DNA from: an uncultured Rhodospirillales bacterium
Lineage (GTDB): Bacteria > Pseudomonadota > Alphaproteobacteria > Azospirillales > Azospirillaceae
Direction: 5' to 3'
Assembly (NCBI GenBank): GCA_903920145.1
Contig: CAIXKV010000077.1
Coordinates: 1-37,828, forward strand
Length of the DNA stretch: 37,828 nt
A model generated the notes under the pieces. The model ran no database searches and was not told where the DNA came from. It was given only the letters and a program-made list of their open reading frames with translations. The translations under genes were made by a program, and so were the position numbers. Shown one piece after another: positions 2,843 through 14,563 of the stretch (positions are counted from its first letter, which is position 1; every line of letters begins with the position of its first letter).

Positions 2843-3469
2843 CTACGGCATTTTACGCGCCATAGCCAGAGCGACGACCCGCGACCGAACGTCAGCCGCC
2901 CTGCTCCCTGTCGACTCGAGTTCACCTGATTTCGGAACGGACGCGATCAGTTTCCGCAGCCTGCCGGCCACAACCGGGAGCCGGCCGAGGATTTCGATGC
3001 AGGACTCCCGAATTTCGCCGGGCAGCGGTCGGAAGCGCATCTTCGGTCCGCGCCGATGGCGGCGACATGCCTCGGCCACTACGCTCGCCGGAAATTCCGC
3101 GATGTCATCCAGCCAATCCGCTGCTATGGCGCGTTCGACCGCCTCCGGTAGCTCGGCGCTCCGATAATGCGCTAATAAGGCATGGATTCTCCCCAGCACC
3201 GCACCTGGCTCGCCTGGTTGCATCGCGACTTCGATCATTTCGAGTTGCCGCCGCAAATCCGGTACATCAGTCTGCGATACCGCCTTCGGTTCCCACAGTT
3301 CGCTCACACCGTCGAACTCATTGTCGCGATACCGAGGCGTCGTCCTGGTCGGTGCCAGCAAATCGGCGACGCGGGCCGAAACCGGAACCAGTGCAGCGGA
3401 TGGGTCAATGGCTCCGCCAGCACGGGTGCTGCCGACCGGGCAGGGCAAGGAAGCCGCGCTACGCTGCAT
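2843..3469 (-). CDS. Hypothetical protein, likely replication accessory
   Basis: 208-residue protein that I cannot assign to a named family with confidence. I place the start at 3469 because GGAGG sits six bases upstream and the ATG overlaps the stop of the preceding HTH gene by 11 nt; a longer frame from 3553 would lie almost wholly inside that gene. The middle part (ADWLDDIAEFPASVVAEACR, then RRHRRGPKMRFRPLPGEIRE) recalls the repeated pattern W-L-x-x-L-x-x-x-P-x-x-V-x-x-A-C-x-x-W-R-R ... P-x-P-x-E-I found in phage and plasmid replication accessory proteins of alphaproteobacteria. That link is a weak inference from pattern. No signal peptide or membrane segment is seen. Its place between an HTH replication-type gene and parA supports a role in replicon maintenance. 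Confidence 0.6.
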   Translation of the reverse strand: MQRSAASLPCPVGSTRAGGAIDPSAALVPVSARVADLLAPTRTTPRYRDNEFDGVSELWEPKAVSQTDVPDLRRQLEMIEVAMQPGEPGAVLGRIHALLAHYRSAELPEAVERAIAADWLDDIAEFPASVVAEACRRHRRGPKMRFRPLPGEIRESCIEILGRLPVVAGRLRKLIASVPKSGELESTGSRAADVRSRVVALAMARKMP

Positions 3470-4277
3470 GATGTGCCTCCGTCCTGGCATGCTGCGCCAC
3501 CGAAGCCCAGGCATCATACCGAACCTGAGCCGCCGATTCCCTTTGTTTGCCACTCTGCCCGTAGCGTGTCGCCGGCCCCAACTTGGCCGCCGCTTGATCT
3601 TCGACCAACCAAACGCGCCATGCGGCGTTCAGATCGAAATAGCGATACCCTTTAGCTCGGCATCGTCCGACAAACCTCTCGGTCGTCGCGTTCAGATCAG
3701 CATTCGGAAATCGATCCATCCCGAACAAGAGGTCGTCATCACTCGGAGTCCAGTCTTTAGGTGGTGTGATGGCGACCCGGACTTCCTGGTCACCTGGCAC
3801 AGTTTTCGGAACAACCGAAATAACTTCGATTTCTGGTGTGCTCGCGGAGTGCGAGTCTTGTTTAATTTCCTGGTTAGGTGTTACGACGTCACCGGACGAA
3901 CAGGGGCTGTTCTCGTCATGACTTACCATGTCACCAGGGTGACCCGCGACGGGCTGGACAATGGTAGTCGTTGGCGAACCTGACACTTCGGAGTCGTTGA
4001 CTGGACCGATCAGCCGATACAGGCAAGTCCGCCGCCCGCCGTCCGTCCGGGATCTGTCTGTCTTCTCGATCAGGCCGATCTCGGTGAGCTTCGCGATGAC
4101 CTTGCAGACCCACGGCCGACTTCGCCCGAGCAACCGCGCGAGCAACCCCTGAGACGGGAAGCATGCCCCATCCTTCGACGCATGCAGAGCCATGACGGCG
4201 AGAACGGCGATTTCATCCGCTCCAACGCTACCGTGCGATATCCAAGCTTCATGAAGCACGGCAATTCTGTTTGCCAT
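3459..4277 (-). CDS. Winged-helix (HTH_36-type) plasmid replication or regulator protein
   Basis: 272-residue protein with an N-terminal winged helix (about residues 20-90: DEIAVLAVMALHA, FPSQGLLARLLGRSRPWVCK, IGLIEKTDR, then a C-terminal wing RRTCLYRL). This layout is that of the HTH_36 family found in phage and plasmid replication initiators and regulators. The middle is low-complexity and acidic. A C-terminal segment (FVGRCRAKGYRYFDLNAAWRVWL) resembles the DnaT/DUF-type tail seen in such replication proteins. The ATG at 4277 is preceded by AGGGGA six bases upstream. The downstream gene overlaps its 3' end by 11 nt, indicating coupled translation. It could be a second replication factor next to repA or a regulator; sequence alone does not decide. 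Confidence 0.7.
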   Translation of the reverse strand: MANRIAVLHEAWISHGSVGADEIAVLAVMALHASKDGACFPSQGLLARLLGRSRPWVCKVIAKLTEIGLIEKTDRSRTDGGRRTCLYRLIGPVNDSEVSGSPTTTIVQPVAGHPGDMVSHDENSPCSSGDVVTPNQEIKQDSHSASTPEIEVISVVPKTVPGDQEVRVAITPPKDWTPSDDDLLFGMDRFPNADLNATTERFVGRCRAKGYRYFDLNAAWRVWLVEDQAAAKLGPATRYGQSGKQRESAAQVRYDAWASVAQHARTEAHHAA

Positions 4278-4463
4278 ATTGGTTCCCCTTTCATTCTACA
4301 GGGGACAAGGCCGCAAATCACCGACTCGGCAAACAATTTTGTTTGCGTACCGACTCGGAACCCGCTATAATCCGGACTCGCTACAGAAAAGATTCCAAGG
4401 GTTCGCGGCCAAGCAAAGACCTTGAAATCTCAATAGCTTATCAGGACGCCTCGTCCAGGCTTT

Positions 4464-4494
4464 GAAGCCCGTGGGTCATCAACCTGCGGGCTTC
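4464..4494. terminator. Stem-loop downstream of repA, candidate terminator
   Basis: GAAGCCCG and CGGGCTTC form an 8-bp perfect stem with a 15-nt loop, 12 bp beyond the repA stop. No clear U-run follows on the minus strand, so it may act as a weak or factor-assisted terminator or an RNA 3'-end stabiliser separating repA from the partition operon. Confidence 0.4.
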
Positions 4495-4505
4495 ATGGTT
4501 TCATT

Positions 4506-5597
4506 TCATATCTCCGTGGTCATCTGCTTCGCAGCAGGCTTTAGGTCAACGACGGTAGGCGGCGGTGCAATCCGATTTCGGACGCGGGCGCTCCCCGTCA
4601 AAGCCTTCGGCTTCGAGACAGCGATGAACGATTTCCGCAGTTCAGCCGGATCCGAGTAGCGTAGCACTAGGCCGGAGTCAGTGATCTCGACGTTCGCACC
4701 CGAGTAGACATCCAATGCCTTGGCGATCGAAGTCTGGAATACTTGGCGGAACCTAGCGCTGGATTCGCTATTGCCGAATTGCTTTGCCAGCATCCGCCAT
4801 TCCAGCGTTTCCGTCTTTCCGGGCGTTATCAGGGGCAATCTGTGGTTCAGGTAGCAATAGACATCGATGCTCATGGGGTTGTTCGATATCTTCCTGAGTT
4901 GCTCGGTCGATACAGGGACGACGTTGCTGCTGGTGAAAGTCTTGAAGGCTTCATCCGACAATTCGATGCCGAGCGGGAATCTGACCTTCGTGAGTTCGCC
5001 GTTGACGTAGTGTTCTAGGTCTTCTTCCGGGAAGATTGATGACGAGATCAACTGGTTCCTGTGGAAGTACGTATGCCTGTGCTGTTTCTCGGTTAGGGCA
5101 ATCGAGAACACCGTATACGTCAAGCGTAAAAGTTGCTCCTTTGCGCCGGCGGCGGCTTCGACGTGGGTGGACATCCCGGCTTCTTCAAGCCATGATTCAA
5201 CCTTGCCCAGCTCAAGCCACCTGGAATTTGTGAGCCGCGCCATTGTGGTCATCCAGATGATCAAGCAGCGCGCGCGTGCTCCGTAAGGCAATCCGATCTG
5301 GAAACTTGACATCCTGCCATCCCTGGCTGGTAGTTCGACAGGAAGGCTTGCGATGGACAGCGCGAACCTTTCGTCCTTGCGTGAGAACGAAGTCATTTCT
5401 CTTAGGGGCTCTGCTGTCTTCCTGGTGTTTTTGTCCCGCTCGAATTGACGGCGCAGGGGCAGACCCGTCATACAAAAACTTTTACTGAGAAAGGATACGT
5501 CCAGCTCGTCGCCGTTTCCGGTGCGGTTCATCGCTCCGTCGAAGAGATCAAGCATCGGGTGGGTCGGTGGTTCGATCTTGACGAGTGCGTTTGACAT
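4506..5597 (-). CDS. repA: RepA-type plasmid replication initiator
   Basis: 363-residue protein matching in layout the 'plasmid encoded RepA protein' family common in Alphaproteobacteria and other proteobacterial plasmids. Recognisable blocks are FCMTGLPLRRQ, PYGARARCLIIWM (about 105-118), a conserved ISSSIFPEEDLEH region, FPLGIELSDEAFK, then SIDVYCYLNHRLP and WRMLAKQFGNSESSARFRQVF, probably two winged-helix folds that bind iterons. The ATG at 5597 has GGGGGAG eight bases upstream. Immediately upstream lies an array of GCGCAAACCCTTAGTTAT-like iterons and an AT-rich stretch, as expected for an initiator that binds and melts its own origin and autoregulates by binding iterons. Family call is from memory of conserved blocks, not from a search. 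Confidence 0.85.
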   Translation of the reverse strand: MSNALVKIEPPTHPMLDLFDGAMNRTGNGDELDVSFLSKSFCMTGLPLRRQFERDKNTRKTAEPLREMTSFSRKDERFALSIASLPVELPARDGRMSSFQIGLPYGARARCLIIWMTTMARLTNSRWLELGKVESWLEEAGMSTHVEAAAGAKEQLLRLTYTVFSIALTEKQHRHTYFHRNQLISSSIFPEEDLEHYVNGELTKVRFPLGIELSDEAFKTFTSSNVVPVSTEQLRKISNNPMSIDVYCYLNHRLPLITPGKTETLEWRMLAKQFGNSESSARFRQVFQTSIAKALDVYSGANVEITDSGLVLRYSDPAELRKSFIAVSKPKALTGSARVRNRIAPPPTVVDLKPAAKQMTTEI

Positions 5598-5680
5598 TAC
5601 TTCGGCTCCCCCTTGGCGACGATGATACTGGGTCCTCTTCCGCTCTCAAGTATGATTAGGCTCCCCAGGTCAACTTTGTC

Positions 5681-6190
5681 CGCGCAAACCCTTAGTTATG
5701 TCGCGCAAACCCTTAGTTATCCGAGTCCAAGGGACTGTGTTGCCATCTGCGGCGGAGCGCTAGGGCCTGTTCGGGCGCACAAACCCTTACTTATGGTCCC
5801 CGAATCCGCCGGGAAAGGCCTGATTCGGGCCGACGCGGGATCTCGATTCGGGCATATGACCCCTAAGTTATTGATATTAAATCATATGCGCGCTCAGCGA
5901 ACTAAGGGTTTGTGCGTCGGCCCGGACCACCCGGCTGGAATAACTAAGGGTTTGTGCGTCAGGTTCATCCGCCGGTCCCGGCATGGCACTCCGGCCCGTC
6001 GATCTCCCCAATCTTGTTGACCGCCCACGACATGATACGAATCCCAGGATAAGTTATATTATAATAAATTATAAATGTGAATAAGGGCTTGGCAGATGCT
6101 TGTCAATACCATTAAGTGTTTATCTAAATTATGTGTCAATTTCTCCTGCATAATTATATTAAATTAGTAACATTAGTTGATATGTGCAAA
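5681..6190. other. Plasmid replication origin (oriV) with iterons and AT-rich region
   Basis: Direct copies of CGCGCAAACCCTTAGTTAT occur at 5681-5699 and 5702-5720 (21-bp pitch) and a variant GCGCACAAACCCTTACTTAT at 5775-5794. Inverted copies AACTAAGGGTTTGTGCG occur at 5900-5916 and 5940-5958 (with ATA before the latter), and a degenerate copy lies near 5859-5871. From about 6030 to 6190 the sequence turns strongly AT-rich (runs such as TTATATTATAATAAATTATAA), and TGTGAATAA at 6076-6084 is one base from a DnaA box. Iterons beside an initiator gene plus an AT-rich unwinding zone is the usual theta-origin layout. There is no gene in this stretch. Confidence 0.85.
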
Positions 6191-6313
6191 TCTTGTCAAT
6201 ATGGACTCTTTGCTTCCCTCATGGCCAGATTGCCAAATCACCGAGTGAAAGTCTGGTATCGCGAATAATGCCGACGAGAGGGGAGACAAAAATGAGACAA
6301 TTTGGGTTCCGGC

Positions 6314-6357
6314 TGTTGGTGTTCAGGAGGATTGATAGTCTGTTGAAGGAGGTTTGA
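6314..6357. repeat. Right end of Mu-like element: paired transposase-site motifs
   Basis: AGGAGGATTGA (6325-6335) and AGGAGGTTTGA (6347-6357) are spaced exactly 22 bp apart, the pitch of the R1 and R2 MuA sites in phage Mu. The outer copy is 11 bp from a TGT trinucleotide at 6314. Inverted copies with one mismatch occur at the other end of the element. Binding by MuA is inferred. Confidence 0.55.
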
Positions 6358-6634
6358 CAGCGGGATTTCCCAAGACATCCCGCGACTTTCTGAGATCGGC
6401 TCAGATTGGCGCACTGTCACCAATCCATCCCAACCAGGTCCCCGCCCGTCGCTCGTGGCGATCTCGTGGGGCGGGGTGGGTGCGCGGCGGGGCCTCCGGG
6501 TAACCCCGCATAGCACTCCGAACGTTGCCGCTCGTGTTACGGCTCGGAGATTGTCACCGTGTCACGCACACCCGGGACCATGTTGGCGTCCTTGGCGGTT
6601 GAACGCAAGCCCGAACGTCGGCTCGGGTCCATCG
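6358..6634. other. Non-coding stretch between head gene T and the right end
   Basis: No convincing gene. A minus-strand 31-codon frame starts a few bases after the T stop (about 6632 down to 6537) but has no recognisable domain and may be chance. In Mu-like phages this place is taken by the remaining head and tail genes, which are absent. Confidence 0.5.
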
Positions 6635-7570
6635 TCACAGATACGACGTTGCCAGCAACTCGGCGCTGCCCTTCCATTCATTGCCGACGGCCACGGCTTG
6701 TTGGACGGGCGGTGTGCCCGTGCCGACGGTGACGGTGATCGGGCGGCTTTCGCTGATCAGGATGCGTCGCCCATCGCCTTCGAGGGCGCGCGGAACCACC
6801 AGCAAGGACGGGTTGATGTTGAGCTTGCGACCACCTTCGCCACGCAAGGTGGTCATGGCGGCGCGGGCCGCTTCGTAGTTTTCGGTGGTCAGAGGCGCCA
6901 TGCTGCCATAGGCCAGTTGCCACAGGCCGAACCCGGCATTGCTGCGGCCGGTAGCGCCGAAGAGCAAGTTGTTCTTCATGAACACGTTGTAATCTTCGGG
7001 ATGGCTCATCATTGTGATCCGATACGGCTCGCGTTCCTGGTAGATCAGGGCGCGAAACGGTCGGGTGGTGTCGAACAAATACCAAGCCGGCCCGGTACCG
7101 ACCTGCATGTTGCTAACGGTGATCGATTGGCCGTTCTGGTCAAAGCTGGAATGAGCGGCGGAAAAGAATGGTTGCTTGTCGTAACCGCATTCCACAAAGC
7201 CGCTGGCCAAGAGATCGAAGGTCAATTCCGTGGGATGAGCCGCCGCAGATGCCCCCAACTCCTGAACCATCGGCGCCAGGACGCCATATTGATCGTCCTT
7301 GATATCATCAAGACTGAGTTCAAAAGTCGACTCGAAACGGCGGTTCCTGATCGTTTGACCGTGCATGGTCAGGCTTTGGATCACTCGATCACCCAGCCAT
7401 TCGCGCAATCGGGGAAAGGTCCCCAACCAAGCGTAAACCTCTTCCCGCACGCCGCTGGGGACGATCATGGCGACTTTCTTGTAGTCGGGCGGAGCCATGG
7501 CGAACCCGGCTCCGAAAGCCGTCTTGTAGCCGGTAAAGATATTCCTGATTGATTCGGCATTGACCAACAT
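6635..7570 (-). CDS. Mu-like major head subunit (gpT)
   Basis: 311-residue major capsid protein of the Mu gpT family, about the length of Mu gpT (305). Diagnostic stretches are the N-terminal TGYKTAFGAGFAMAPPDYKKVAM, the P-loop-like E-loop segment WLGTFPRLREWLGDRVIQSL, and MVQELGASAAAHPTELTFDLLASG. The C-terminal part reads GNEWKGSAELLATSYL, ending the way these proteins usually do. It would build the phage shell after cleavage or assembly by the I-type protease/scaffold encoded directly upstream (gap of three bases). It is complete, with no frameshift, although no terminase or portal is present to fill the shell. Confidence 0.92.
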   Translation of the reverse strand: MLVNAESIRNIFTGYKTAFGAGFAMAPPDYKKVAMIVPSGVREEVYAWLGTFPRLREWLGDRVIQSLTMHGQTIRNRRFESTFELSLDDIKDDQYGVLAPMVQELGASAAAHPTELTFDLLASGFVECGYDKQPFFSAAHSSFDQNGQSITVSNMQVGTGPAWYLFDTTRPFRALIYQEREPYRITMMSHPEDYNVFMKNNLLFGATGRSNAGFGLWQLAYGSMAPLTTENYEAARAAMTTLRGEGGRKLNINPSLLVVPRALEGDGRRILISESRPITVTVGTGTPPVQQAVAVGNEWKGSAELLATSYL

Positions 7571-7573
7571 GGC

Positions 7574-8527
7574 TTAGTCCTCGAAATGCTTATAATAGTC
7601 GCCTTCGAAAATCCCCATGGCCTTACAGACCGCGACTTGTCCTTGGCTTAGTCGGCCGTTTCGGGTTGTTCCGGGCGGCGGACCATCAAGACCTGATGGT
7701 TCGAATATTCTATGGATGGAAGGCCCGGTGGTCTTGAGGAAGTCATCGAAAACCGGCTTGTTGACCGAGCAGACTTTTATTCCCCAGTCTCGCAAGGACG
7801 GCGGCAGCACTCCGCAGGCAACGGCACGCTCAACCGCCTGTTCTGCCGCTTGGAGCGACAATCCTTGATTGATCCGGTTATAGTCGGACACGATCCGCTT
7901 GAAGTCGCCGATCGGCACATAGTGCGCGGGATCGACGGCGGATTGGGCGGTCGTCAACAGCTTCTTCACGGCTTCGGTGATGGCGTCGATATCGGCATCG
8001 TCCGGCAGTTCCAGCAATTGCCGGAGTCCGGTCAGGTCGCAAGTGTCCATGGTCCCTCTGGTGCTGGCCAGCGCGGTGAGTTCAAGGTTGGGAGCGTTGG
8101 TCAGAGCGGCTCGCAAAAGGCGCGTTACGGTGCCGTCTGGCGTGTAGTTCATGACTGGTGAAAGGTAGCGATACTCTTTGGCGCGAAGATGTTCGGCTGC
8201 CCGTTGGGTCCAGTTGACCAATCCCCAAATGCCATCGGAACGAGCTTGCAAGCCCTTGATCCATCCCGCGGCCGGAGCAGGCTTGCCGTTGCGCGCGGCA
8301 TAGTCGGCTTGATGGTCGTAATCAACGGCGAGTTGAGTTTTTCCGGCATAGGCGCGGGTTGCCGCGATGACCGCGGCGGGGTTGGTGACTTTCCACGGAC
8401 CGCGCCCATCCCGCCCCTCGAACCGGCCGGCGGGCAGAAGGTGGACCCATTGCTCATTGGAAACCGCAGTCGGCTCGGTGGCCAGGGTGACGGTGAAGAC
8501 GCCGATCGGCGAGACGGGCGTGGTCAT
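7574..8527 (-). CDS. Mu-like protease/scaffold protein I
   Basis: 317-residue protein of the Mu gpI family, which combines a head-maturation protease and scaffold. The N-terminal half shows the family pattern: WVHLLPAGRFEGRDGRGPW, then AVDYDHQADYAARNGKPAPAAGWI (a conserved Asp/His-rich segment), GLVNWTQRAAEHLRAKEYRYLSPVM and LLRAALTNAPNLELTALAS. The C-terminal half is helical and probably the scaffolding part. It overlaps the mor stop by four nt (ATGA), which is unusual because in Mu-like phages mor and I are separated by lysis, terminase, portal and minor head genes. Full length and apparently intact. Confidence 0.9.
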   Translation of the reverse strand: MTTPVSPIGVFTVTLATEPTAVSNEQWVHLLPAGRFEGRDGRGPWKVTNPAAVIAATRAYAGKTQLAVDYDHQADYAARNGKPAPAAGWIKGLQARSDGIWGLVNWTQRAAEHLRAKEYRYLSPVMNYTPDGTVTRLLRAALTNAPNLELTALASTRGTMDTCDLTGLRQLLELPDDADIDAITEAVKKLLTTAQSAVDPAHYVPIGDFKRIVSDYNRINQGLSLQAAEQAVERAVACGVLPPSLRDWGIKVCSVNKPVFDDFLKTTGPSIHRIFEPSGLDGPPPGTTRNGRLSQGQVAVCKAMGIFEGDYYKHFED

Positions 8528-8982
8528 GATTGGCCCCCATCCGCCCCGGCGTCTCCGATTGCCCGCAGTTGCTTGCGCTCTTGATGCCGCTGCCGATCGC
8601 TCCGGCGCCCAAGCTCCTGTCTCAGAATGTTCCGGACCTGGCGATCGGTGCAGCCGACGTCTTGGGTGATCTCGCGGTGGGTCAGGCCAGCGTCGTGAAG
8701 CGCGACCACACGGGACCAGTCTATCCGCCGACTATGGTAGCTTCCCCGTCCAGTCGGGATGTTGATCGTTCGCGGGGCGCCGAGCGCCTCGGCGATCTGT
8801 CTTGCGGCCCGCAGTCCGACAATTTGCGTCAGCACACAATCCGCCGTGGGGGTCTCGGGCAAATAGATGGTGACGCCCCCGCGCGCCTTGACCAGTGCCC
8901 GCGCCGCTCCTTCGCCTGCCGCCTCGCGTATGATGGCGAGATGCGGACAAGACGCGAAATCAATGTCTACCAATGCGACCAT
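8524..8982 (-). CDS. mor: Mor/C-family transcription activator
   Basis: 152-residue activator of the Mor family, which turns on middle and late genes of Mu-like phages. An N-terminal dimerisation part (GEGAARALVKARGGVTIYLPE, with AARQIAEALG after it) precedes a C-terminal helix-turn-helix (IDWSRVVALHDAGLTHREITQDVGCTDRQVRNIL, about residues 92-122). It is somewhat longer than Mu Mor (129) because of a Q/R-rich tail. The start at 8982 has GGGGGAG two bases before the ATG and another GGGG stretch upstream. The stop overlaps the I start by four nt, so here the activator is translationally coupled to the head genes it would normally help to switch on. Confidence 0.8.
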   Translation of the reverse strand: MVALVDIDFASCPHLAIIREAAGEGAARALVKARGGVTIYLPETPTADCVLTQIVGLRAARQIAEALGAPRTINIPTGRGSYHSRRIDWSRVVALHDAGLTHREITQDVGCTDRQVRNILRQELGRRSDRQRHQERKQLRAIGDAGADGGQS

Positions 8983-9053
8983 AGCTCCCCCGGCCCAAGT
9001 CTGAGGGGAAAGTGTTCCGATGTCGGGAAGATGTCTGGAGGGAAGAAGTTCCG

Positions 9054-9077
9054 CTCCCCGGAACTGTTCCGGGGGAG
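9054..9077. other. Strong inverted repeat upstream of mor
   Basis: CTCCCCGGAA and TTCCGGGGGAG pair over ten bases (one bulged G) around CTG. It lies in the 260-bp gap between the early genes and mor, where Mu has the middle promoter. It could be an early-transcript terminator or a regulator site. No U-run follows. Confidence 0.45.
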
Positions 9078-9242
9078 TGTGGTTCGGGTCGGGAGAATTT
9101 TGGGAGAGACGGCACCGAAAGATGGTGTGGGAGAGGAATGCCGATTACCGATGACTTAAAGCGGAAATTAAACGGGTCTGGCCTTTGGACGCTCCCGGAG
9201 TGCGGAGAAAGTTCAGGCCATTCAGCGGGCTTCCTACGGTGT

Positions 9243-9608
9243 TTATCGTGGGCGCCCATTTTTCCGGTATGGGCCAGCCTTCCTCGCCTTTTGATGGTGG
9301 CGATGGATCGATGACCGGGACGGCGCCCGGTCACCGAAGTGTTCGCGGCAGGCGTCTGCAATATCCTCGTACTTCATCCGCCCGAGCCGGTCTTCGACGA
9401 AGTGCAGCACCTCGGGATCGCGGTCGAGTTTGCCGGGACGGCCCTTGTGAGCATCGCGCACGGCATTCCAGAACTCGACGATGCGCGTCCGCGACCAAGC
9501 TCGGGCTTCCCCGAACCGGTCCCGGATGGCCTGGACGATCTCCGACCAGGTCATCGACGACGGGCAGGACCGGATGTAGTCCTCAACCTCTTGGTCGCGT
9601 TCGTGCAT
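9243..9608 (-). CDS. HTH-like hypothetical protein of Mu-like phage
   Basis: 121-residue basic protein with two probable helix-turn-helix segments: MTWSEIVQAIRDRFGEARAWSRTRIVEFW (about 19-47) and MKYEDIADACREHFGDRAPSRSSIHRHHQK (about 79-108), separated by a DRDPEVLHFVEDRLG linker. The repeated pattern (x-x-E-I-x-x-A-x-R-x-x-F-G ... S-R-x-x-I) suggests an internal duplication of one DNA-binding module. The start at 9608 has GGAGAGGG a few bases upstream, and GemA ends 12 bp before. Its place between GemA and Mor fits a phage regulator. Exact function unknown. Confidence 0.75.
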   Translation of the reverse strand: MHERDQEVEDYIRSCPSSMTWSEIVQAIRDRFGEARAWSRTRIVEFWNAVRDAHKGRPGKLDRDPEVLHFVEDRLGRMKYEDIADACREHFGDRAPSRSSIHRHHQKARKAGPYRKNGRPR

Positions 9609-9620
9609 GATCCCTCTCCT

Positions 9621-10073
9621 TCAAGCCGCGCCGGGTGATGCTGGCGCCGTTGGGGCGGCAGGTGCCTCCGCGCGCTTCTTTGCCATGGCCTTGAGGGCGG
9701 TAATCGCCTTGGGTGCCACTTCGGCGTTGACGAAGCGGATGGCCGAGACTTTGAACTGACGGTGCAGCCACTTGCCCAAGCTCGCGTCGGTGCCTTCCCC
9801 CGCCGTGAACTCAGCCCACAGCCGCCGGATCATCGCGACCTGGCCGGGCGACGCCATACCCGGCCGGTCACCGAAGTTCTTCTTCTTGGATGTGGATTTG
9901 AAGCCGCAAGACTCGAAAAAGGCCATCACGGCCATGAACCCGGCCAGGTTCAAGTCCTTGCTGCTGTCGACCCTACCCAAGCGTTTCAGGACGGTGCGGT
10001 AATCATCGTCCGTCAGGCAAAGCTGTTGCCGCGCGACCTGGATCAAGGCGACTTTCTTTCCATCGAGTGCCAT
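9621..10073 (-). CDS. gemA: GemA-like regulatory protein (Mu gp16 family)
   Basis: 150-residue protein of the GemA/gp16 family, which in Mu alters host gene expression and DNA supercoiling. The N-terminus IQVARQQLCLTDDDYRTVLKRLGRVDSSKDL matches the usual start (I-x-I-A-x-x-x-L-x-L-x-x-x-x-Y-R). It is followed by MASPGQVAMIRRLWAEF and a C-terminal WLHRQFKVSAIRFVNAEVAPKAI, both family hallmarks. The tail is Ala/Pro-rich and probably disordered. GGAGG lies eight bases before the ATG. It sits in the expected early-region place after MuB. Confidence 0.88.
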   Translation of the reverse strand: MALDGKKVALIQVARQQLCLTDDDYRTVLKRLGRVDSSKDLNLAGFMAVMAFFESCGFKSTSKKKNFGDRPGMASPGQVAMIRRLWAEFTAGEGTDASLGKWLHRQFKVSAIRFVNAEVAPKAITALKAMAKKRAEAPAAPTAPASPGAA

Positions 10074-10088
10074 GGTTCAACCCTCCGC

Positions 10089-10376
10089 TTACCTTTCGCC
10101 GTCTGGCGCCATAAAGTCGAAGCGAGCCTGTCCGTATTCCTTCAGGTTGCTGTCAACCATCTCTGTCAGGGTTCTGGACAGTTCGAACAACGCATAGAAC
10201 CGCTCCCGTTCTCCCGCGATGTGCCTACCATCCCAGTTATCCAGTTTCTGTCTGGCGCACTGGAGAACCGTATCCAGTTGAAATACTTTATACGATGTCT
10301 TGACGAACCCCTGATATTCCTTGAGGGTGGCATCATTGCCTGGGGTGGTATTGCGCTTCTTCTTTTCCTTGCTCAT
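10089..10376 (-). CDS. Small hypothetical phage protein
   Basis: 95-residue charged protein (MSKEKKKRNTTPG at the start; long helical body LKEYQGFVKTSYKVFQLDTV; then ERERFYALFELSRTLTEMVD). I start it at 10376, where its ATG overlaps the MuB stop by four nt (ATGA), in preference to a frame from 10406 that would lie inside muB. No known family recognised. Its place between MuB and GemA is where Mu-like phages carry semi-essential early genes. Confidence 0.7.
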   Translation of the reverse strand: MSKEKKKRNTTPGNDATLKEYQGFVKTSYKVFQLDTVLQCARQKLDNWDGRHIAGERERFYALFELSRTLTEMVDSNLKEYGQARFDFMAPDGER

Positions 10377-11338
10377 GCCACCGGTCCCAGGTTGAGGTTG
10401 GCCCATGCGGTGCGAAGATGCTCGATGGTCAGGGGCTTGCCTTCGCCATCGGCGTAAAGCCGCCCGAGACGCTGGGTCTTGGCGATTGAGCGCAAGCCGC
10501 TGTGGGAACGGGCGATCTGTCCCAGGAAGAGCCGCTCGTCCTTGCCGTCGATACCCAAGGCGGTCGCCAGCGCCGTGATGTCGGCCGAGCTGGTGGCGGT
10601 GATCGTCACGCGCTTGCCGATCCGGCTGGAAAGCTGGGGAAAGGCGCTAATCTTTTCCCAGAGCTTGTCATCGCCCGCGTAAACCAACCCGATCCCGGTG
10701 CCGTCGAAGATGCGGCGTGCGGTTTCCAGGGCTTCGGCTCCCAGGTGCTGGGCTTCGTCCAGGATCAACAGCCCCCCGGTGTCCCGGATGCGTTCGGAGA
10801 TGTCGCGGCGCATTTTGGCGGCTCCGCCCCCGAGTGACCGCAAGCCAAGGGCAATCCCGATTTCCATCAACATCGGCACCGGCGTCTTGGTGTCCGGACT
10901 CATGGTGGCGAGCCAGACATTGGTGCGGGCATCCCGGTAATGCTTCATGGCCGTGGTCTTGCCCACCCCGGGAACCCCGGAAACCAGAACCAAGTCTCCG
11001 ATCAGTTGGGCGTATTCCAGAGCGCCGATGACCAGATCGCTGGTCGGGGTCTGGACGAACTGGGTTACGGACGTCATGCCGGCGGGGAGCTTGTCGCGCT
11101 GATCAACGAGTTCCAACCATGCCGCGGCCTTGCCGGCGACGGCGCGATCGTCGGCCCCATAGGTGCCGCTGAGAAAGCGCGACAGGGCCGACGCGCTAAT
11201 CCCGATCTCGCGTGCGGCGGCATTCTGCGACAGGCCGCGAACGGCGATGGCAGCCCGCACCCGTTCGGCAACGGTGGTGCAATCGTCTTGCACAGCGGGT
11301 TCAGCGCCGTTGCCGGGTGGTTTTTCGGTGAGCGTCAT
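10373..11338 (-). CDS. MuB-like transposition target ATPase
   Basis: 321-residue AAA+ ATPase of the MuB family (Mu MuB is 312). Residues about 23-60 form an N-terminal HTH (RVRAAIAVRGLSQNAAARE, then SASALSRFLSGTY) that contacts target DNA. The AAA+ part has Walker A GVPGVGKT (about 121-128), Walker B LLILDEAQ (about 190-197) and a C-terminal domain. It binds target DNA, stimulates MuA and gives target immunity. I chose the ATG at 11338 over the longer frame from 11572 because the extra residues are Arg/Pro-rich junk overlapping muA, and GGGGAG precedes this ATG. It lies 76 bp after muA. Confidence 0.92.
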   Translation of the reverse strand: MTLTEKPPGNGAEPAVQDDCTTVAERVRAAIAVRGLSQNAAAREIGISASALSRFLSGTYGADDRAVAGKAAAWLELVDQRDKLPAGMTSVTQFVQTPTSDLVIGALEYAQLIGDLVLVSGVPGVGKTTAMKHYRDARTNVWLATMSPDTKTPVPMLMEIGIALGLRSLGGGAAKMRRDISERIRDTGGLLILDEAQHLGAEALETARRIFDGTGIGLVYAGDDKLWEKISAFPQLSSRIGKRVTITATSSADITALATALGIDGKDERLFLGQIARSHSGLRSIAKTQRLGRLYADGEGKPLTIEHLRTAWANLNLGPVA

Positions 11339-11414
11339 ATATAGTGTCTCCCCTGTGAGGGTGCGGGCGGTGCCCGCGGTTACCGAGCCTGGGGGCGTTG
11401 GCGCGTCCCCAGGC

Positions 11415-13403
11415 TCAACTTGCAAAGCGTTGGCGTTCTTTGAGGCGTTCGTGAACCAGCCGCTGAAGCCCGGCTTCCAGGTCGCGGGCGCGGGTGTTTG
11501 GCTCCTGCGGCGTGGCGCCGAAGTTCCCAGTGACGATCTCCGCCTCCGATGCGGGCGCCGATGCCGCCGCACCGGGCAAGCCGAACAGCGGCGCCGAGAC
11601 GTTGGTTTCGCTGGCGGGCGGTACCGGATCGGGCCGGGCCTCTTGGGAGCGTTTGCGCAGGTTGTTCAGTTCGGACTCGTTCATCAAGTTGAGGCCCTTG
11701 ATGGCGGCCCGGGCCGCCTTCTTCCGTTGCGCCTTGCCCCGTTCGTGCTGGCGGGCATCTTCGGTGCTGTCGAACTTGCCTTTCTTCAGGCACGGCAGGC
11801 TGTCGATGATCACCCGGCCCTCGCGGTTCAGGACCATGACCGGCTTGCTGCGGTCCGTGGGATCGAACATCATGGCGACCTTGCCGTGGTGGTGCGCCAG
11901 CAGCGTATTTTGATGCTCGGGCGCCCAATAGCGGAAGCCGTTGCTGGTCAGAGCACCGGTATCCTTGTTCGGCTTGAGGTAAACGGCATCCAGCATGAAG
12001 AAACGGCGTTGCGCTGCGGTAATGTCACGGCGCGGCCGTTGGGCGTAACTTTCCGCGAAGACCTGATCGAACGACAGCTTGCCTTTGCCCATTTCGGTAC
12101 GGCGACCGGTTCGGGCATTGAGTGCGTTTATTTCGCGGTCATACACTTCGCGGAACAGGGCGATGGGCACGGCCTTGCCTGCGAAGTCTTCGGGCTTGGC
12201 ATCGGGCTTGTGACCACAATAGGCTTCCCGAAATTCGGGGCAGGTGTCGATTTCCCGGGCATGATCCCCGAAAGTGCGCTCGATCGGCTTGGCGCGGCCG
12301 TTCTCAGGAAGCGCGAACCCGACTTGAGCACCCATCAACGTCAGGATGCCCGGCGGCTCGTCCCCGCCCATCTTGCCCCGGAACCGATGGCGCGCCCCGC
12401 CAGACACTTTGTGCGACGCGAACGCCCGGCCATTGTCGGTGCGCAAGCCATCGAACAGGCCGTAGCGGTCAATGACATCAAGGACAACCAGCTTGGTGGT
12501 ATCGGCGTCTTCGGTCTTGGACACCCGCCAGCCCAGCATCTTGCGGCTGTAAACATCCTGAATGGCGATGATGATCGGGCGGCTGATCGTGCCGTCTTCC
12601 CAGATCACGAAGACATCGGCCATGCGGCCGTCCATATTCACGATCCCCATGGCCTGGAGATGGGCAACCGAGCGGTCCATGGCCGGTTGGGTTTTGTCGA
12701 ATGCCTTGACCCCACTCCGCAGCAACGCCTTGGTCCCGGCATCCATTTTGCTGTAGCAGCGCATGATGGTGCCATAGGACGGCCAGGCCCACCCATTGAG
12801 GGCGGCGGCTTCGGCGGTTTCCCGATAGGCTTTCTTTATCGGTGAGTGCGCGCTGGCGTTCTCGATGTAGGACAGGAAGAAACGAAACGCCTCTGTGGAC
12901 ACTTCCGCGGGCACACCACCGGGTTTCCAGCCCGGCGCCAGGGCCGGCAGCCAGTCGGCGCGGGGAACGCTGTCGACTCGAGCGTACCAGCGCCGGATGC
13001 TTTGAACATCGGTACCGGTTTCCTTGCTGGTCTCGGACAGCGCCCGGCCCCAGGTGGCGCTGCTGTCGATTTGCGCCTGCACCGCACATATAATAGTGTG
13101 TCGGTGTTCAGCTTCGCTGATGGTCTTGGGCGTGGCTAAGCCGAACGCTTCCCAAAGCGCCGGGTTGGTCCCAGCGGGATCAACGCCAACGCGACGTTGA
13201 AGCCAAGCGACCTGGGTTTCGGGGGGAAGGTCGGAGTAGTTGACGGCTGTTGCGGTGTTGCCTGAATACTCCGTTATTGTGGTAGGCAATCCCATACGAT
13301 CAAAGAAATATCGCATTCCCCGCGAAGTTTTTGGAAGGACTCCTCCCTCCGCTGCTTTGAACGGTAATCCCATGATGTCTCGAAGCGGGATGATTGTATT
13401 CAT
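11415..13403 (-). CDS. MuA-like DDE transposase
   Basis: 662-residue transposase, the same length as MuA (663). The integrase-like core carries the DDE triad: Asp258 in NMDGRMADVFV, Asp323 in LRTDNGRAFAS and Glu375 in AKPIERTFGD, with spacings close to MuA (67 and 56 residues). The C-terminal part is the Mu transposase beta-barrel (RRDITAAQRRFFMLDAVYLK, then VAMMFDPTDRSKPVMV), and the last 100 residues are the MuB-contacting tail. The N-terminal 90 residues hold the HTH that binds the element ends and enhancer. It would cut the TG..CA ends and join them to target DNA. The ATG overlaps the preceding Ner-like stop by four nt. No frameshift or missing catalytic residue is seen. Confidence 0.95.
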   Translation of the reverse strand: MNTIIPLRDIMGLPFKAAEGGVLPKTSRGMRYFFDRMGLPTTITEYSGNTATAVNYSDLPPETQVAWLQRRVGVDPAGTNPALWEAFGLATPKTISEAEHRHTIICAVQAQIDSSATWGRALSETSKETGTDVQSIRRWYARVDSVPRADWLPALAPGWKPGGVPAEVSTEAFRFFLSYIENASAHSPIKKAYRETAEAAALNGWAWPSYGTIMRCYSKMDAGTKALLRSGVKAFDKTQPAMDRSVAHLQAMGIVNMDGRMADVFVIWEDGTISRPIIIAIQDVYSRKMLGWRVSKTEDADTTKLVVLDVIDRYGLFDGLRTDNGRAFASHKVSGGARHRFRGKMGGDEPPGILTLMGAQVGFALPENGRAKPIERTFGDHAREIDTCPEFREAYCGHKPDAKPEDFAGKAVPIALFREVYDREINALNARTGRRTEMGKGKLSFDQVFAESYAQRPRRDITAAQRRFFMLDAVYLKPNKDTGALTSNGFRYWAPEHQNTLLAHHHGKVAMMFDPTDRSKPVMVLNREGRVIIDSLPCLKKGKFDSTEDARQHERGKAQRKKAARAAIKGLNLMNESELNNLRKRSQEARPDPVPPASETNVSAPLFGLPGAAASAPASEAEIVTGNFGATPQEPNTRARDLEAGLQRLVHERLKERQRFAS

Positions 13404-13648
13404 AACTCGTTACTCCAATATATCCCGCACTCGATCACTATTCTTTGGACGAGCGATCGCGCATTTCTACTGTTATTAATGCCGAGCAACGCTTGTTCGG
13501 CAGTTCTCCTGATAATACCTTTTTCCTTGCACCATAGGTTGAACGAGATACCCTTCATAACAAAAGCGGCTCGAACCTGTCGGTGAAGGTCCGGCCCCGT
13601 CGGAGGGAGGGCTTCCGTTGCCCCATCATCGGTGTTAATCTGCATCAT
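13400..13648 (-). CDS. Ner-like early regulator
   Basis: 82-residue DNA-binding protein just upstream of muA, overlapping its start by four nt. The core (DLHRQVRAAFVMKGISFNLWCKEKGI, then RRTAEQALLGINNSRNARSLVQRIV) has helix-turn-helix character like Ner or Mu-like phage early regulators, which hold down the early promoter. A longer frame from 13903 exists but would run through the divergent control region and the repressor N-terminus, so I start at the paired ATGs at 13648/13645. No clear Shine-Dalgarno is visible, and the start overlaps the operator-like dyads, so the mRNA may be nearly leaderless. The start codon is uncertain. Confidence 0.7.
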   Translation of the reverse strand: MMQINTDDGATEALPPTGPDLHRQVRAAFVMKGISFNLWCKEKGIIRRTAEQALLGINNSRNARSLVQRIVIECGIYWSNEL

Positions 13649-13666
13649 GCAGATAGCATGATCTGC
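13638..13666. promoter_or_regulatory. Operator-like dyads between repressor and Ner-like gene
   Basis: Three half-sites alternate in orientation: ATCTGC at 13638-13643, GCAGAT at 13649-13654 and ATCTGC at 13661-13666. The first two form a 17-bp perfect dyad (ATCTGCAT-C-ATGCAGAT). They lie between the divergent regulator genes and overlap the Ner-like start, as expected for a lysis/lysogeny switch operator. Confidence 0.6.
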
Positions 13667-13700
13667 GTTATGACGACCGTCAACCCCGGAGATCGTAAAA

Positions 13701-14285
13701 ATGCATCCAAACGACCAAATACCTTCCCAACCCGAGGGTGCTTCCGCCCGATCAGATACTGGGGTGCCGCGGATTGAACTCAATGCTGATGACGTGATTG
13801 ATCGGATGAAAAAGGTAATAAAAGTTGATACCGATACGGAACTATCGCGCGCACTCGGCACGTCTAATAAAAATATTTCCTCTTGGAGGAATCGAAACTC
13901 CATACCATATGAAGATGTCTTGCGAATAGCTCTGAATTTTGGGGAGTCAATGGAGTATGTTTTAACCGGAAAACATGTGCAAAGTCAGATAGAAACCCTT
14001 AAATCGTCCCCATTCGATGGAGATATTTTACGTATTATTACAAAGGACTGGGTTGATGATCACGATGAAGGCACTTTCGGCGACGACAAAGATAGAGAGT
14101 CAGAACTACTGGCCGCACGAATAATTGTTGAATACGACAGATATGTTAACCTCATGCGGCAAGCCACAGAAGCTGGACGAATGAATAGGAGGGAGTTCCT
14201 TGATGCTCTCCGAAAGGCATCCTCCACCGATGCCGCTATAGAGACAACATTACGGGTGCGGAAGGCGCGCAGACGCGCAGAATGA
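13701..14285 (+). CDS. Mu-like phage repressor (CI/MuC type)
   Basis: 194-residue repressor divergent from the transposition operon; Mu c is 196 residues. The HTH lies at about 31-85 (DDVIDRMKKVIKVDTDTELSRALGTSNKNISSWRN, then IPYEDVLRIALNFGESMEYVLTG), the pattern of the phage CI-repressor N-terminal domain. The C-terminal half is charged and helical with no LexA-like peptidase dyad, so induction by RecA-mediated self-cleavage is unlikely. The ATG at 13701 has CGGAGA eight bases upstream. It would bind the dyads at 13638-13666 and silence muA/muB. The gene is clearly more AT-rich than muA and the rest of the element, as is common for phage repressors. Confidence 0.85.
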   Translation: MHPNDQIPSQPEGASARSDTGVPRIELNADDVIDRMKKVIKVDTDTELSRALGTSNKNISSWRNRNSIPYEDVLRIALNFGESMEYVLTGKHVQSQIETLKSSPFDGDILRIITKDWVDDHDEGTFGDDKDRESELLAARIIVEYDRYVNLMRQATEAGRMNRREFLDALRKASSTDAAIETTLRVRKARRRAE

Positions 14286-14485
14286 TGCCACTGGCAACAC
14301 ACCAGAGGGTCGGAAACTGTGGGGGGGCGGAACTGAAGCTTCCGACCCCCGGTAGAAATAGCGGGCCATGTGGCTACGGTAAGATTACCCCTAACACCTT
14401 GATGAAACAGCGTTGAAACGGGTTTTCATCCAAACGGCGTCATAAACGATGTTCTCACTACGTTCGTTGTCCCCAAGGCAATTTA

Positions 14486-14563
14486 TCAAACCTCTTGCAC
14501 CTCACCAAGCCTAACTCATTGATTTTTCATAGCCCGCTTTTTCAAACCTCTTGCGCCCTCACA
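14486..14563. repeat. Left end of Mu-like element: paired transposase-site motifs
   Basis: TCAAACCTCTTGC occurs at 14486-14498 and 14542-14554, 56 bp apart. The outer copy lies 11 bp from ACA at 14563, mirroring the right end. These would be the L1/L2-type MuA sites. The region from 14286 to 14485 between repressor and end holds no gene. It contains TGAAACAGCGTTGAAAC and GGTTTTCAT, short A/T tracts that may be further sites. Confidence 0.55.

Follow-up and report, generated by a model that had tools for sequence, protein, structure and literature searches.

What is the purpose of a phage shell when the element that encodes it has neither a portal nor a packaging motor? This question is raised by a Mu-like element of 8,250 bp at positions 6314–14563 of the window, that is, the whole 37,828-bp contig C77 of genome G000 (4.26 Mb, 269 contigs). 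The element carries genes for jumping and for a shell and none for filling the shell or for a tail, so such elements are probably parasites of full-size Mu-like viruses. We favor, with a probability of about 0.6, the reading that it is an intact member of a long-lived lineage of 8–9 kb transposable phage satellites that derive from a Mu-like phage, make their own shell and use the motor and tail of a helper. With its relatives in other genomes, it belongs to a lineage of small Mu-related jumping elements that was previously unnoticed.

The element and its ends

The element lies between two Mu-type ends and encodes a repressor, a Ner-like protein, a transposase, MuB, GemA, a helix-turn-helix (HTH) gene, Mor, the protease/scaffold protein I and the major capsid protein (MCP) T; c, ner, A, B, gemA, mor, I and T stand in Mu order. 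Every open reading frame (ORF) is open, and the broken ORFs and scattered breakpoints of a decayed prophage were not seen. These coordinates and this gene content had been proposed in a sequence-only reading of the window, and they are borne out by profile matches and by the intact DDE and Walker A residues; its claim that lysis, terminase, portal and tail genes are absent agrees with tblastn searches using Mu, Ps59 and PeaS-P1 proteins, which detected none of the terminase, portal, F, lysis or tail genes in the element. The genes and ends are as follows.

6314..6358, plus strand: right end, TGT and two transposase-binding-like sites (AGGATTGA at 6328, AGGTTTGA at 6350), from the motif count
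6635..7570, minus strand: T, Mu-like major capsid protein, 311 aa, intact (PF10124, E 1.3e-101)
7574..8527, minus strand: I, head maturation protease with a C-terminal scaffold region, 317 aa, intact (PF10123, E 2.7e-65; phrog_328 over residues 17–314; alignment)
8524..8982, minus strand: late activator of the Mor/C family, whose stop overlaps the start of I (ATGA) (phrog_836, E 8e-18)
9243..9608, minus strand: o121, 121 aa, two predicted HTH domains; homologues so far in reduced elements only
9621..10073, minus strand: GemA (PF06252, E 6.5e-26)
10089..10406, minus strand: small ORF between B and GemA, no function assigned; other elements have small ORFs at the same place
10373..11335, minus strand: MuB-like transposition ATPase (PF09077, E 4e-19; phrog_296, E 3e-70; Walker A GVPGVGKT)
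11415..13403, minus strand: Mu-type DDE transposase A, 662 aa (PF02914, E 3e-46; phrog_310, E 6e-99; D, D and E present)
13400..13600, minus strand: Ner-like small regulator, the 3' part of a longer ORF (phrog_15281, E 6e-6)
13701..14285, plus strand: CI-type repressor, divergent from the early operon (PF07022, E 2.5e-12)
14480..14563, minus strand: left end, ACA and two transposase-binding-like sites (14549, 14493), from the motif count

The window contains exactly four copies of the motif AGGWTTGAHA, a pair at each end of the element. According to the sequence-only reading, the paired motifs are equidistant from TGT/ACA; this is true of the outer sites, which start ~14 bases inward at both ends, and not of the inner sites, which lie at ~36 at the 6314 end vs. 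~70 at the 14563 end. In Mu, R1 and R2 are close together and L1 and L2 are spaced, and the inner-site spacing of the element resembles this arrangement.

For the transposase, no relative above ~38% identity was found (59 relatives; 385 genomes of the class, phages, IMG/VR and GTDB contigs); T is 41–45% identical to the T proteins of full-length phages, among them the T encoded by contig C174 of the same genome. We considered o121 as a small terminase and rejected this assignment: the profile matches are weak (phrog_426, E 8e-5, ~55 residues), its AlphaFold model has a predicted local distance difference test (pLDDT) score of 72, and no fold in the PDB matches. Near the element, a replication-initiator-like protein (4506–5597, minus strand) suggests, from sequence alone, plasmid or integrated-plasmid surroundings.

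Reduced elements in other genomes

Our sample of the order comprises 82 species genomes and contains T at 17 loci. Thirteen of these keep further virion genes around T; the other four (the window, G001, G004 and G449) are reduced. A gp35-like gene separates I and T at all 13 of the non-reduced loci and in none of the reduced elements. Another locus, L092, was rejected as a further reduced element, since it includes the end of F, on the opposite strand, and lies on a cut contig. No reduced locus appears among the 80 best T relatives in IMG/VR; F, a portal or a terminase is within reach in 62, and the remaining 18 are short contigs that still have neighboring virion genes.

A scan of GTDB with T yielded a contig of a metagenome-assembled genome (CAIYNU010000078.1, uncultured Rhodospirillales; the same-genus genome G001) that contains a decayed second copy of the element. 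In this copy mor, I, T, a non-coding block (with the RNA described below) and the right end are ordered as in the window with DNA identities of 94–98%, and the terminal 132 bp of the right end are identical; the copy is located at a different site, upstream of a hypE-like gene, and has several internal deletions. On L102 (1239–2318 and 5760–6368), its mor is cut beside a relaxase-like ORF, now degenerate, and a TraG-like region, which would place it, as judged from sequence alone, within an old conjugative element.

In G449, a genome of another genus, the element is intact. It is found on a 436-kb contig (C27) with a flank that is closest to Azospirillum (77% similarity to a replicon of Azospirillum ramasamyi), and it spans 8.18 kb between inverted end-site pairs, with the 4-bp repeat ACGC adjoining both ends. 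It encodes c, transposase, ATPase, orf91, GemA (54% identity to that of the window), o121 (40%), I (41%), T (51–52%) and mor; its transposase belongs to a different branch from that of the window element (phrog_310, E 4e-50). The G004 element is split and decayed: a transposase of the G449 type (48%), the ATPase and the repressor are on contig C192, and the end of o121 and truncated I and T are on C156; we estimate its size, from these two separate contigs, as ~7.3 kb. The right ends of the window and G004 elements are similar (CTCAGAAAG...GGGATATCCCGCTGT); because G004 has end sites of the G449 type, this similarity was not used as evidence.

Searching plasmids with the transposase and T of G449 led to pAACEN2 of Acetobacter aceti NBRC 14818 (NZ_AP023412.1). 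The element on this plasmid encodes a repressor, transposase, ATPase, small ORF, GemA (46% to the window), two Mor-like genes, protease I and T, and further carries a scaffold-like ORF, the structured RNA M1 (see below) and an o121-like protein with repeated domains. It is 8,999 bp in length (3368–12366), is bordered by a perfect 5-bp target duplication (ATCAT/ATCAT) and splits an IS3-type orfB; when the flanks are rejoined, an open frame runs across the site. The duplication and the restored frame imply that the reduced unit itself transposed; together with the different sites of the G001 and window copies, they indicate that the element is discrete and moves as a unit.

The sequence-only reading had proposed a search for the same reduced set elsewhere; such sets of 8–9 kb are present at different sites in the intact G449 and A. 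aceti elements, with two decayed ones in addition. Neither of the outcomes that it had named as contrary to its proposal was found, that is, a single known copy or close full-length relatives with the missing genes at the same breakpoints.

For both GemA and T, the window, G449 and A. aceti proteins are each other's closest relatives or nearly so. Homologues of o121 occur in G449, in the G004 fragment (74% over 23 aa) and, in repeated form, in A. aceti; no homologue turned up in any other genome of the 385-genome class sample. In a T tree of 25 rows the window, G004 and G449 cluster (support 92/96; the G004–G449 pair is starred). With A. aceti and extra full-length phages included (37 rows), the four reduced elements cluster (85/71; the inner three, 97/85), and the reduced state requires only one change. 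In approximately unbiased (AU) tests with T alone, alternative groupings were not rejected (p 0.16–0.24); with I and T together, G004 and G449 group at 99/99, and trees that place G449 with the local full-length phages are rejected (p 0.008). Between the window and G001 copies, T has 19 synonymous and 8 nonsynonymous changes, with a ratio of nonsynonymous to synonymous rates (dN/dS) of 0.12, which indicates that T is under purifying selection; because the G001 copy is now broken, this value and those for I and mor (see below) are upper estimates of the ratio during the active time of the element. The grouping of T, the shared o121 and GemA and the dN/dS of T argue that the reduced set has been conserved as a lineage and is not a single deletion.

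The C-terminus of Mor in the window element extends ~16 aa beyond the family and overlaps I, so a random in-frame fusion through deletion is a candidate origin for this gene; against this, the A. aceti element likewise has Mor-like genes immediately 5' of I.

Structured RNAs and non-coding motifs

Three non-coding features of the window element have counterparts elsewhere.

6414..6476, plus strand: GC-rich hairpin CCCCGCCC...GGGGCGGGG, part of a conserved non-coding block (90% identical over 63 bp at G003:C156; 81% over ~190 bp, including the RNA, at G003:C172)
6456..6585, plus strand: structured RNA motif M1, 3' of T on the opposite strand, with an invariant TACGGC, a conserved CACCGTG and a covarying outer stem
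9156..9176, minus strand: CCCGTTTAAn7TTTAA motif, with like sequences just 5' of I in Mu-like phages (the annotated gyrase-site region of Mu)

M1 is ~100 nt in length, with a conserved TACGGCTGGGAG..CACCGTG core and an outer stem in which all seven pairs have compensatory changes. It is located in the gap between F and I in many Mu-like phages as well as within the reduced elements (L027:808, L034:6685, L268:4303–4397 on the minus strand, and others). Rfam 15 contains no family that matches M1, and its assignment as a C4 antisense RNA or other Rfam family was dropped; a protein motif (YGWEIHRVS) was also rejected, because one- and two-base indels occur within the motif and the reading frames vary. 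The block of hairpin and M1 is also found ~200 bp from a tRNA gene (G003:C172:43234–43422), and the hairpin alone at G003:C156:8245–8307, with no Mu genes nearby.

A second structured motif, M2 (AACCGGGAAATC..GGTCCGGTT..ACGGGGAAGGTGGCGTTCCCCC), occupies the same gap (L137:12390–12500; L118:228–350 and 2055–2160; L145:13058–13300). It is 82% identical between a reduced element and the Mu-like prophage of the same genome, with opposite orientations relative to I, and dispersed copies occur elsewhere in related genomes. In G449, the strong-gyrase-site (SGS)/RNA blocks of the element and of the prophage share 82% identity. A CCCGTTTAA-n-TTTAA motif lies 5' of I in Mu-like phages (L027, L016, L137:12265 and the Mu 17879 region), close to where the gyrase cut site of Mu is annotated, and is retained in reduced elements.

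Explanations for a shell without a motor

As satellites, the elements would act as follows. Induction of a resident full-length Mu-like phage would derepress the element, which would then be copied by replicative transposition; its own Mor would activate I and T, and a shell would assemble that is probably smaller than that of the helper (the genome is ~1/5 of Mu's, so a small shell is predicted). The portal, terminase and tail of the helper would complete the particle, and the element would travel as a satellite. More tentatively, the elements may constitute the first satellite family of Mu-type phages: self-transposing, with a small capsid of their own built from a bare protease/scaffold and MCP, a borrowed portal, terminase and tail, and packaging that is perhaps redirected by o121 and the structured RNA. 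Both genomes with intact chromosomal elements have Mu-like virion genes elsewhere (G000:C174 and G449:C15); G001 and G004 contain no second T. This joint occurrence, in few cases, is only suggestive.

Several observations weigh against the satellite reading. Helper dependence, packaging and particles are predictions from genes alone. Neither candidate helper is demonstrably complete: C174 is a 16.7-kb contig, the C15 prophage has a split portal, and a portal search of G000 gave no match, with controls that were equally silent. The dN/dS values of I (0.44) and mor (0.48), also upper estimates, signify weaker constraint than that on T. The 5-bp flanks of the window copy (CCGGC/CCTGG) differ, that is, there is no target duplication, and both flanks are single copy; the 14563 end adjoins the 3' part of an IS256-type transposase, the 5' part of which is missing beyond the other end, so the locus was rearranged after insertion and transposition of the reduced unit is unprovable from this copy alone. 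Known satellites that make shells (cfPICI) bring their own packaging genes, unlike the element. Finally, the window element does not group with the other reduced elements in the I and T tree. We read the T grouping and this differing result together as an old reduced lineage, likely of single origin, in which the transposase module and some of I were probably exchanged.

The main rival, which we consider unlikely, is a selfish transposon that uses its shell genes for interference: when a Mu-like phage, whether incoming or resident, is induced, I and T would be made, co-assemble with the capsid protein of that phage and poison its heads, and the element would spread solely by transposition and plasmids, with the host repaid by phage blocking. 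A capsid protein and a protease without portal or terminase are what a capsid poison needs, no member keeps packaging genes, and the A. aceti copy is on a mobilizable plasmid; however, the MCP is full length, the protease/scaffold is retained (with a separate scaffold-like ORF in A. aceti), and the capsid proteins of resident phages are only ~40–50% identical to those of the elements, which makes co-assembly less likely. It is still less probable that the shell has no role in DNA transfer and instead encloses the transposition complex as a sealed protein compartment or has been domesticated as a nanocompartment, in which case the element would not be a satellite. Lacking a portal, such a shell could close fully, and the conserved structured RNA goes with the shell genes; however, the cassette moves together with genes for transposition, it has not become fixed in hosts, and we recognized no cargo gene common to all members. 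Random decay of ordinary Mu-like prophages that spared the same genes by chance, to which the decaying G001 and G004 copies and the rearranged window flank might point, is effectively excluded by the recurrence of the set, at similar size, in four other elements (two intact, two decayed), the grouping of the capsid genes, the purifying selection on T, the transposition of a reduced unit with target duplication, and the neighboring virion genes retained at ordinary T loci (13/13 in the order and 80/80 of the best in IMG/VR). The sequence-only reading had preferred streamlining to random decay; the recurrent set, the transposed A. aceti unit and the capsid grouping support this.

Compared with Mu and Mu-like phages (Mu, B3/JBD25/Ps59 and vB_PeaS-P1), the elements have the same gene order from c to T, paired-site ends and, in A. 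aceti, the 5-bp target duplication; however, they are 8–9 kb rather than 36–40 kb, lack lysis, terminase, portal, F, G and tail genes, encode o121, which was not seen in full-length phages, and have adjacent I and T genes without the gp35-like gene of local phages. Laboratory mini-Mu is also short transposing DNA between Mu ends, whereas the element is natural, has its own transposase and repressor, is conserved across genera and has shell genes under selection. To our knowledge, the satellites described so far use recombinases for integration and rely on cos- or pac-phages. cfPICIs integrate by an integrase and carry packaging genes; in contrast, the element has a DDE transposase, MuB and Mu-type ends, and no integrase-type insertion, terminase or portal. 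Like cfPICIs, which are satellite-like islands that encode their own capsid (a family in PMC11389934), it has shell genes (I and T). P4-like elements, PICI, PLE and PICMI are likewise small regulated elements without virion genes that presumably hijack a helper; however, they take or remodel the capsid of the helper, whereas the element carries a full Mu-type MCP, the protease/scaffold and genes for replicative transposition. A recent review that lists P4-like, PICI, cfPICI, PLE and PICMI satellites, along with a few proposed families, contains no mention of Mu-like or transposable phages (PMC11389934); in the open-access literature we found no Mu-type satellite.

Because one member is located on a small plasmid of a culturable type strain, A. 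aceti NBRC 14818, the question of what the shell is for can be addressed at the bench. If the satellite reading is true, a transposing satellite would be able to insert almost anywhere, and it might also carry host DNA if its packaging is headful as in Mu.

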